From Candidatus Nitrosopumilus sp. (lineage in GTDB: Archaea; Thermoproteota; Nitrososphaeria; Nitrososphaerales; Nitrosopumilaceae): 40,758 bases of DNA. Below, one piece after another: positions 408 to 2,833 of the stretch; position 1 is the stretch's first letter; each line of letters begins with the position of its first letter. Location of the stretch: contig JAPFBP010000007.1 of NCBI GenBank assembly GCA_029250275.1, positions 1-40,758 on the forward strand. The letters run 5' to 3'. Under the pieces are notes generated by a model that searched no databases, had not been told where the DNA came from, and saw nothing but the letters and a program-made list of their open reading frames with translations. The translations under genes were made by a program, and so were the position numbers.

Positions 408-649
408 TAAGATACTGTCGTCGTTTTTGTTAGTGTCTTTTCTGGATCGACATGGAGTTCTTGTCCATTTTCCCCGGATCTAAATGAAATTCTTGCACCT
501 TTCTCAAAATGATATGTTTCATGATGTTGGTGACATCCAAACACAAACACTTGGGCTTGAGGTTTGATTGCAAGCCAAGTTAGATGGTAATTGATCACTC
601 CTATAATTTCCCAGTCTTTAGGTTTTGGAATGTGAGTAGTCAAGAGCAC
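407..649 (-). CDS. 80-aa His/Cys-containing protein overlapping znuA-like gene
   Basis: An 80-aa protein whose start (649) lies inside the last codons of the ZnuA-like gene, overlapping it by 10 bases, and whose stop overlaps the next start (TAATG at 409-405). It contains a compact CHQHHETYH cluster in the middle, a plausible metal site, then a charged C-terminal half. No signal peptide or membrane segment is evident. The overlap on both sides argues for a three-gene transcription unit with the zinc-binding protein gene, and the His/Cys cluster fits a metal-related role, but the family is not recognised. The normal partners of ZnuA, an ABC permease and ATPase, are absent here. Confidence 0.5.
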   Translation of the reverse strand: MLLTTHIPKPKDWEIIGVINYHLTWLAIKPQAQVFVFGCHQHHETYHFEKGARISFRSGENGQELHVDPEKTLTKTTTVS

Positions 650-1863
650 TCTAATGCAATTTTGAGGTTATCAATATTTGCTCTCATTTTGTCAAAGTAT
701 GTGGTGTCTGGACTATCATGTTCTGAAAGTGATTCTAATGGACTAAACAACAAAATGTCTCCTCCTAATTCTGATGCTAATCTTTCAGCAAGTTTTGGGT
801 TTCTATTTTCTTCTGTAAAGAAATATTTTATGTCATGATCTTCGGCAAAATGAATTAGTTCTTCAATAGCCTTTGCAGTAACAGGAGTCTCAGGACTGAA
901 CTCCTTGATTACTGTAAGGGTGTGAAGGTTGTATCTCTCTGCAAAATAAGAAAATGCATTGTGGAATGGTACAAACGTGTCCTTTTTACAGCTAGATAAT
1001 TGTTGCCTTATTTCTTGATCCAATGTGTCTAGTTGGTCAGAATAACTTTTAGCATTGCTGTGATAAGTTTCTGAATTTTCAGGATCTGCAGTAGCCATGT
1101 GGATAGCGATATTCATTACCTGTTTTTTAGCCAATAATGGATCAAGCCAAATATGTGGGTCATAATTATGACCAAGTTCTCGTTCTTCTTCATGTACATC
1201 TTCTCCTGAAACTAAATGATGAATTTCTTCTATTCCTTTTGAATCGTCAACATGCCCTTCCTTGATTTCATGTAATAACATTTCAATTTCTTCAATAACA
1301 TTTGCTCCATGTTCATGTCCGTCGCCTTCATGTTCGTGTAATATCTGCCCAATGGATTCAATTGTTTGTAATTCGTTAATGTGGCCAGATTCAAACTCTT
1401 CTATTGTTTTTGAAATGTAATCTAAAAATTCTTCAGTGTGCTCATCATGTTCTTCATTTTGGCTGTGATCATGTTTTTCCCCTCCTAGAAGATCTATTCC
1501 TTTTGAGGAATCAACAAATATCAAATGTGAGAAATCAGGAACGGATTTAATCTCGTCAATGAATGGCTCAAAATCAGCCCCATTGTAAACTAGCATATCG
1601 GCTTTTGTCATCTCAACCATTGTTTTTGGACTCATCGCAAAAGTATGAGGATCCGCATTTGTAGGAAATAATGATCTAACATCAGCAGCATCTCCAGCAA
1701 TATTTTGAGTGAATTGCTGTAATGGATAAAATGTAGTATAAACTAGAAATCTCTTTTCAGAGGAAATAGTTTCATCTTGAGGCATTGTAAATGTCATTAT
1801 CCCCACAAGTGCAATTGTGATTGCAATTATACCTATAATGATTGCAATTTGTGATTTGTTCAT
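640..1863 (-). CDS. znuA: ZnuA-like metal (zinc) ABC transporter substrate-binding protein
   Basis: Lipid/membrane-anchored binding protein of cluster A-I, expected to capture Zn2+ (or Mn2+) outside the membrane. The N-terminus has one hydrophobic segment (about residues 6-27). The family metal ligands are visible: His in NADPHTF (about residue 72), His in YDPHIWLDP (about 236), His in FHNAFSYF (about 300) and the acidic FFTEEN segment. Between residues about 128 and 235 is a long acidic, His-rich loop with many H-x-H and E-H pairs, the loop that in ZnuA distinguishes zinc proteins and may buffer metal; here it is unusually long (about 100 residues). The 407-aa length is above the usual 300-330 for this reason. 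Two small genes follow in overlap. A paired inverted-repeat operator lies just upstream. No permease or ATPase gene is nearby. Confidence 0.88.
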   Translation of the reverse strand: MNKSQIAIIIGIIAITIALVGIMTFTMPQDETISSEKRFLVYTTFYPLQQFTQNIAGDAADVRSLFPTNADPHTFAMSPKTMVEMTKADMLVYNGADFEPFIDEIKSVPDFSHLIFVDSSKGIDLLGGEKHDHSQNEEHDEHTEEFLDYISKTIEEFESGHINELQTIESIGQILHEHEGDGHEHGANVIEEIEMLLHEIKEGHVDDSKGIEEIHHLVSGEDVHEEERELGHNYDPHIWLDPLLAKKQVMNIAIHMATADPENSETYHSNAKSYSDQLDTLDQEIRQQLSSCKKDTFVPFHNAFSYFAERYNLHTLTVIKEFSPETPVTAKAIEELIHFAEDHDIKYFFTEENRNPKLAERLASELGGDILLFSPLESLSEHDSPDTTYFDKMRANIDNLKIALECS

Positions 1864-1878
1864 GCCTGAAATATTTAA

Positions 1879-1967
1879 TTGTTATTAATAAAGTTGTAAA
1901 TTCTTAATAACACTATATATGTCAAAATAAAATTGTTATTAAAAATTATTAAGAAGTTTAATAACAA
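1879..1967. promoter_or_regulatory. double inverted-repeat operator between znuA-like gene and divergent microprotein
   Basis: Four copies of one 10-mer form two identical-geometry palindromes. TTGTTATTAA at 1879-1888 pairs with TTAATAACAC at 1904-1913 (one mismatch), and TTGTTATTAA at 1933-1942 pairs with TTAATAACAA at 1958-1967. The spacer is exactly 15 bases in both cases. An AT-only TATA-like stretch (1913-1920) sits in the gap and would place the znuA transcript start near 1888, inside the first palindrome. This is the layout of a dimeric repressor site; a metal sensor is the natural guess given the gene controlled, but the regulator itself is not in the window. Confidence 0.7.
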
Positions 1968-2027: not shown

Positions 2028-2123
2028 ATGGCAAAGATTGTAAAATGTCCAAGTTGTGATTGTCATATTGTTCTAAATGATAAGGGACAAAAAGAGTTCT
2101 GTATGAAAGATAATAAGAAATAG
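2028..2123 (+). CDS. 31-aa zinc-knuckle microprotein
   Basis: Starts MAKIVKCPSCDCHIVLNDKG and ends with a Cys and a basic tail (31 aa). The C-x-x-C-x-C-H group plus a later Cys can form a small zinc site. It is transcribed divergently from the ZnuA-like gene, and the second inverted repeat of the shared operator lies about 60 bases upstream, with an AT-rich TATA-like stretch near 1994-2003. That placement suggests joint metal control. The sequence is too short for a family call; reality is supported by the Cys pattern, the clean ATG start and the promoter position. Confidence 0.55.
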   Translation: MAKIVKCPSCDCHIVLNDKGQKEFCMKDNKK

Positions 2124-2167: not shown

Positions 2168-2833
2168 TCAATAATCATAATCACATAGAGGGCAAACCCA
2201 ACGATCCGGTTCATCAAGTTTTTCTCCACTCTTCCTTCTTAGTTCTAGATATTCATACAAAGATCTAGTTGCTTCAGGAGTTAAGAATCCAAAATATTCC
2301 TCTCTATCTCTTGCATAGAATCTAAGACACTTGCAATCATCTCTTACAGTATCAAGAACGTCTCCGAACTTTAGACCTGTTAGACCTCCAACCCTACAAC
2401 CAGTAGAACTAAAAACTAGAATTACTGCTTTAGTTCTTTTCTTGTTTGTGCAAGATAGCATGGTTTCAATATCTCCTCTCGAATATGCATTGAATCCCGA
2501 AACCTTGACTTTGGCTGGATACATTTTTTTGATTTTGATTTTGTTTAGAACTATGTCATTTAACGCATAGAACAAAAATATCGGAGCTAACCTCATTCCA
2601 AAAGAATTAGGGCTGATTCTATTTTTGAGATATATTGTGTAATCCTCAACTTTTTCTTGAATACTCTTCTGATCTCCTTGTAATAATTGATCATAGTTAT
2701 CAACTTCAATGAATTCCATGAAATATCTCATTCCTCTAGAATAGCCTTCTCTAGTGTGATCGGATTTGATACTTTGTTCAAATATCAATTCACATCTTGG
2801 TTGCTTCAACAATTTGAAATCCTCAAGACACAA
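2168..2833 (-). pseudogene. truncated tyrosine recombinase (integrase)
   Basis: A 221-aa product with the SAM-like core-binding domain (about residues 15-110) and the start of the catalytic domain, including the first catalytic Arg in SSTGCRVGGLTGLKFGD (about residue 145). The H-x-x-R box and the nucleophilic Tyr are missing: the protein stops at CPLCDYDY, roughly 80-100 residues short. The N-terminus is also doubtful, as the only start is a TTG at 2833 and the frame is open upstream to a TAG without an ATG. This looks like a remnant of an integrated element; alternatively it could be a DNA-binding derivative without recombinase activity. No att-like repeat or tRNA was recognised beside it. 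Confidence 0.7.

Follow-up and report, generated by a model that had tools for sequence, protein, structure and literature searches.

Comparative sequence analysis indicates that two inverted repeats upstream of a znuA-type gene in Candidatus Nitrosopumilus sp. (contig JAPFBP010000007.1; the whole 40,758-nucleotide stretch analyzed is called the window here) form a real and widely conserved control switch in ammonia-oxidizing archaea, and it strongly supports their assignment as a metal-uptake operator. We consider it likely that these dyads are the autoregulated operator of a NikR-family metal sensor, specific to ammonia-oxidizing archaea, that represses zinc uptake.

The array consists of two dyads, neither of which is assigned to a strand. 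Dyad 1, proximal to znuA, spans 1879 to 1913 and reads TTGTTATTAA-N15-TTAATAACAC, with the core TTATTAA-N15-TTAATAA at 1882 to 1910; dyad 2 (1933 to 1967; core at 1936 to 1964) lies 54 bp farther upstream of znuA and is a perfect TTGTTATTAA-N15-TTAATAACAA. The 10-15-10 geometry and the 54-base offset of the pairs had been described correctly in a sequence-only reading of the window. That reading had also claimed four perfect arms, which is true of three (1879 to 1888 and 1933 to 1942 on the plus strand, and 1958 to 1967 on the minus strand, all TTGTTATTAA), while the arm at 1904 to 1913 on the minus strand, GTGTTATTAA, carries one mismatch. The two copies of the conserved core stand on either side of a conserved TATATA element (1913 to 1921, minus strand), the likely TATA box of znuA; a second candidate for that role is TTTACA inside dyad 1. 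The intergenic region that bears the dyads is 164 bp long and 84% A+T, and it separates znuA1 on the minus strand from a divergent microprotein gene on the plus strand. The znuA1 ATG occupies 1863 to 1861, and about 16 bp separate it from the outermost arm, which starts upstream at 1879; the array thus overlaps the likely core promoter of znuA1, as had been claimed, but not the start codon.

The znuA1 gene (640 to 1863, minus strand) encodes a 407-aa substrate-binding protein of a metal (zinc-type) ABC transporter, which matched the Pfam ZnuA family (PF01297) with 262.7 bits and contains a long His/Glu/Asp-rich insert; its best NCBIfam matches, AztC/AdcA, fell below the cut-offs. On the other side, the gene at 2028 to 2123 (plus strand) encodes a 31-aa Cys-rich microprotein, MAKIVKCPSCDCHIVLNDKGQKEFCMKDNKK (KCPSCDCHI...EFC), which has homologues at eight other loci and no match in Pfam or NCBIfam. 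Across the nine versions, differences at codon positions 1, 2, and 3 numbered 100, 16, and 234, indicative of a real gene under coding constraint. The microprotein gene adjoins znuA1 in the nine loci examined; it is possible that it is a second target of the operator, co-controlled with znuA1, and that its product is a zinc-linked small protein. An ORF beside znuA1 (2168 to 2833, minus strand) resembles a tyrosine recombinase/integrase, with no Pfam match, and a similar integrase-like ORF was seen near znuA1 at locus L042, so the DNA around this znuA1 copy may be mobile or variable.

To gauge chance occurrence, 20,000 sequences were simulated with a Markov model fitted to the intergenic region (84% A+T). 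A single exact 7-15-7 dyad turned up in 0.04 to 0.12% of them and two exact dyads in none. The host genome assembly (1.48 Mb, 99% complete, from an ammonia-oxidizing archaeon whose close relatives are Nitrosopumilus) was then scanned by pattern and profile searches. With up to one mismatch, the 10-15-10 pattern occurred in this array only, and the 7-15-7 core gave five matches, all upstream of three znuA paralogues: two at znuA1, one on contig C13 between znuA2 and a divergent gene, and two upstream of a third znuA on contig C28. The third paralogue (L080, G000:C28:1-400) ends at the contig edge, and the two dyads upstream of it each have one mismatch. The profile was built from sites in related genomes together with the window itself, and 150 of 3260 first-look candidates were scored; using sequence alone, it placed the three exact sites first (E values of 2.6e-6, 1.3e-4, and 2.2e-3), the next candidate being at 0.17. 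A reversed-pattern control gave 24 matches in this genome compared to five for the core, which we do not read as avoidance, since this control probably over-counts in AT-rich DNA, where TTAA-type words are rarer than AATT-type words. Simulation and genome-wide rarity agree with the original view that the array is unlikely to arise by chance even in AT-rich DNA, and together they rule out chance AT-rich repeats; the search for the pattern ahead of metal genes that had been proposed at the same time returned a znuA paralogue downstream of every match.

Conservation was surveyed in 60 genomes of the genus. Exact 7-15-7 cores numbered 64 and were spread over 49 of the 60 genomes (15 matches for the reversed control), and 53 of them lay at most 200 bp upstream of a znuA match. 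Of the 11 others, three stood between a NikR-like gene and a znuC-type operon (G006, G024, and G048), and another, in G035, had the regulator gene on one side and a truncated znuA on the other. In G024, a tandem pair preceded a COG0523/CobW gene that is divergent from cbtA, and a further core lay next to an 83-aa ORF. The last four were apparently unrelated. The dyad upstream of the 83-aa ORF (L116 7137; G024:C1:91636) is about 4.7 kb from the regulator gene. In the promoters of znuA1 orthologues, both dyads and the TATATA box are kept, with a spacing of 54 to 66 bp and variable flanks and spacer, and TATATA precedes dyad 1 by 3 to 6 bp in most of the aligned promoters. Beyond the genus, at L204 to L209 and L214, which represent several other genera and another family of the order, the regulator gene and znuA likewise have an exact dyad between them. 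At distant loci, the dyad is weaker, with one mismatch at L217 and two at L213, and at two distant loci of the Nitrososphaeria (L218 and L220) the regulator gene was present and no clear 7-15-7 dyad was recognized. In its own genome the pattern occurs at znu-type promoters only, and it is conserved upstream of znuA orthologues across the genus and beyond, so that the reading survived the refutation proposed for it, namely background occurrence all over the genome or lack of conservation upstream of znuA.

These data bear directly on the possibility that no dedicated regulator exists and that the dyads are features of the DNA alone, such as AT-rich promoter repeats or hairpins involved in transcription or termination. 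The composition of the region and the TATA-like elements inside and between the dyads are what such features might look like; against this, the arms and the 15-bp spacing are exactly conserved across genera while flanks and spacer vary, and the dyads are placed exclusively at metal-gene promoters. We regard this explanation as very improbable.

The C13 site points to a candidate regulator. There, the dyad separates znuA2, which is followed by genes for an ABC ATPase and a permease, from a divergent gene (G000:C13:84303-84686) for a 127-aa NikR-like RHH protein. Its N terminus matched Pfam RHH_1 (25.8 bits; cut-off, 20.5), the only such match in this genome, and its C terminus matched NikR_C, the ACT-like metal-binding and tetramerization domain (47.8 bits; cut-off, 22). 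The closest solved structures by sequence are NikR, and a Foldseek search with a predicted model of moderate confidence (pLDDT of 62) returned only NikR among the top matches. In relatives, the regulator gene is often the direct divergent neighbor of a znuA1-like gene, with the dyads in between, and sampling of 56 genomes across the order recovered it in 55. Among the 60 genus genomes, 50 had both the regulator and ZnuA, four had ZnuA only, six had neither (several of these being incomplete), and none had the regulator only (Fisher's test, p = 4e-6, or 0.004 for the 38 better genomes); the linked genes often share one locus, so they could be lost together without a regulatory link. Two of the ZnuA-only genomes (G029 and G056) are incomplete, and in G005 znuA lies near a contig end. 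In the fourth, G009 (L008, G009:C1 near 1210780), the regulator gene stops after about 14 codons beside an intact znuA and dyad, a truncation that could be decay or an assembly error.

A regulator of the Fur, DtxR, or ArsR type had been suggested for the array, a suggestion that is not supported by these findings, which among the three families cover DtxR-type genes. In this alternative, a DtxR/MntR/ZntR-type repressor would use the dyads as its operators: this genome encodes four DtxR-type proteins, and in methanogens a DtxR-like protein, ZntR, is predicted to regulate znuABC, as in Methanosarcina (PMC2770081). The four genes lie at other loci, however, and no 7-15-7 dyad was found around them at up to two mismatches. 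They do not co-vary with the dyad either, as DtxR genes persist in genomes without znuA, the NikR-like gene, or conserved dyads, and at the dyad loci examined a DtxR gene was never seen as the divergent neighbor, a position repeatedly taken by the NikR-like gene. Moreover, a tetramer of the NikR type suits half-sites 22 bp apart better than one DtxR dimer would. We therefore rejected DtxR as the regulator and hold this alternative to be unlikely. ZntR resembles the system proposed here in being an archaeal regulator predicted for znuABC and COG0523 genes, and differs in protein family, in motif, and in that the prediction comes from methanogens.

The comparison with NikR is closer. Domain order and predicted fold are shared with the NikR proteins represented by E. 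coli (nikABCDE), H. pylori (ureA), and P. horikoshii (2bj1), and an inverted-repeat operator with half-site centers 22 bp apart and the proposed control of a metal-uptake transporter are also common to both. The E. coli NikR operator, GTATGA-N16-TCATAC, has this same separation (PMC7055735), the NikR-type operator of delta-proteobacteria, 7-N13/14-7, is close to 7-15-7 (PMC545781), and H. pylori NikR also binds an AT-rich TTATTA-type half-site (PMC9860126). The present system differs in its target, which is of the znuA/znuABC type rather than nikABCDE or nikMNQO, in its TTATTAA half-site, in the position of the operator beside the regulator's own gene, and in the double operators around the TATA box at znuA1. 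The protein also scored below the cut-offs of curated NCBIfam NikR models (82, 69.5, 64.2, and 57.1 bits against 111, 83, 105, and 175, respectively).

The metal site sets it apart as well. Canonical NikR uses a His3Cys ligand set, which in H. pylori consists of His88, His99, His101, and Cys107, giving the motif HxH-x5-C (PMC9860126); the E. coli ligands used for comparison are H76, H87, H89, and C95 (HxH-x5-C), and the E. coli row of our alignment matches the sequence in the PDB. Every one of the 58 homologues, all taken from the retrieved loci, has HxH-x7-C in place of this motif, with His74, His83, His85, and Cys93 invariant; His74 is replaced in two distant members of the order (L211 and L214). 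Three of the four NikR ligands align with residues of the regulator (H74, H85, and C93), the His at 83 is new, and the position of NikR H89 is taken by Lys in 57 of the 58 and by Arg in one, which leaves the His3Cys set incomplete. Since the stretch running from the first His to the Cys is as long as that of canonical NikR, the simplest reading is that the protein gave up one ligand and acquired a new one, two positions ahead of the His it retains; the gapped alignment to H. pylori NikR would also allow a compensating two-residue shift, an ambiguity of the alignment. Given these ligand differences and the NCBIfam scores, we filed the protein as a NikR-family variant and not as NikR. Outside the order, the canonical HxH-x5-C form was found at L221 (G079) and L222 (G060), where the divergent neighbor of these class-level homologues is not znuA but a large membrane ORF similar to a P-type metal ATPase. 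In G105, a second, canonical NikR paralogue (HxH-x5-C; L215, G105:C1:265000-269300) adjoins an ABC ATPase and an ABC-3-type permease, and the HxH-x7-C form is also present, next to znuA.

The altered ligands and the nature of the targets also bear on which metal is sensed. If the dyads are the operator of the NikR-like protein, the metal sensed, and carried by the ZnuA-type transporter, might still be nickel, or else cobalt or manganese. Mn or other metals can be the cargo of ZnuA-family proteins. The NikR_C domain, the three aligned ligands, the canonical paralogue of G105 beside its ABC-3-type transporter, and the occurrence of cbtA, annotated as a probable cobalt transporter subunit, with the COG0523 gene among the G024 targets are all in keeping with this. 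The change to HxH-x7-C with Lys at the H89 position argues otherwise, and we favor zinc because the targets are ZnuA-type proteins, one with a His-rich insert typical of zinc, and COG0523 genes, which are common members of Zur regulons (PMC2770081). On this linkage to ZnuA and COG0523, zinc is the probable metal, and we give another metal a minor, though not negligible, chance. Dyads upstream of a COG0523/CobW gene were present in two of the 60 genomes, at L117 (G024:C11:100034-100094) and at L177 (G034), the site of the G034 homologue being similar with a 14-bp spacer. We accordingly did not retain COG0523 as a general target; with its dyads, it is possibly an accessory unit of a zinc or cobalt regulon.

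For the NikR-like protein as a zinc-responsive repressor, we infer the following scheme. Metal loading of the C-terminal domain would, as assumed from the NikR precedent, favor DNA binding. With half-site centers 22 bp apart, about two helical turns, as in the E. coli NikR operator, the natural model by analogy is one tetramer per putative operator dyad, with one RHH dimer on each half-site. An offset of 54 bp corresponds to roughly five helical turns, so that both znuA1 sites would face nearly the same side of the DNA. At znuA1, dyad 1 would cover the presumed initiation region, with TATATA between the dyads, and occupancy should block TBP/TFB or the polymerase, so that bound protein over the TATA and initiation region would turn high-affinity uptake off when metal, most likely zinc, is sufficient. 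The single dyad of znuA2-type promoters, which has TTTATA at its center and also adjoins the regulator gene, would act likewise; the position of the dyad beside that gene suggests autoregulation. Like a Zur box, the operator overlaps the promoters of znuA(BC)-type genes and, in two genomes, that of a COG0523 gene; unlike Zur, the candidate regulator is an RHH/NikR_C protein without the Fur-family fold, and Zur boxes are compact palindromes, unlike the 7-15-7 operator.

According to a 2009 survey, the archaeal genomes sequenced by then were without a recognizable Zur (PMC2770081), and for Nitrososphaera viennensis under copper limitation, the transcriptome report mentions zinc/iron permeases alone. 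We found no paper on zinc regulation or a NikR regulon in ammonia-oxidizing archaea in a search that covered mainly openly accessible literature, and an earlier prediction in a regulon database is possible. Ammonia-oxidizing archaea are among the most abundant nitrifiers, often in metal-poor ocean water. If our interpretation is true, the NikR-like protein would supply the missing zinc regulator of the ammonia-oxidizing archaea of the ocean, and it becomes possible to name an operator, a candidate regulator, and a small regulon, all present almost throughout the order and open to direct testing. The odds somewhat favor the broader proposal that nearly all ammonia-oxidizing archaea keep zinc uptake under a NikR-derived sensor with remodeled ligands (a new invariant His, and H89 lost), an analogue of Zur with its own 7-15-7 operator. 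Such a sensor would be a natural example of how ligand set and target can both change inside one family of metal sensors, and the regulon of the znuA operator could serve as a marker of zinc stress readable in environmental transcriptomes.
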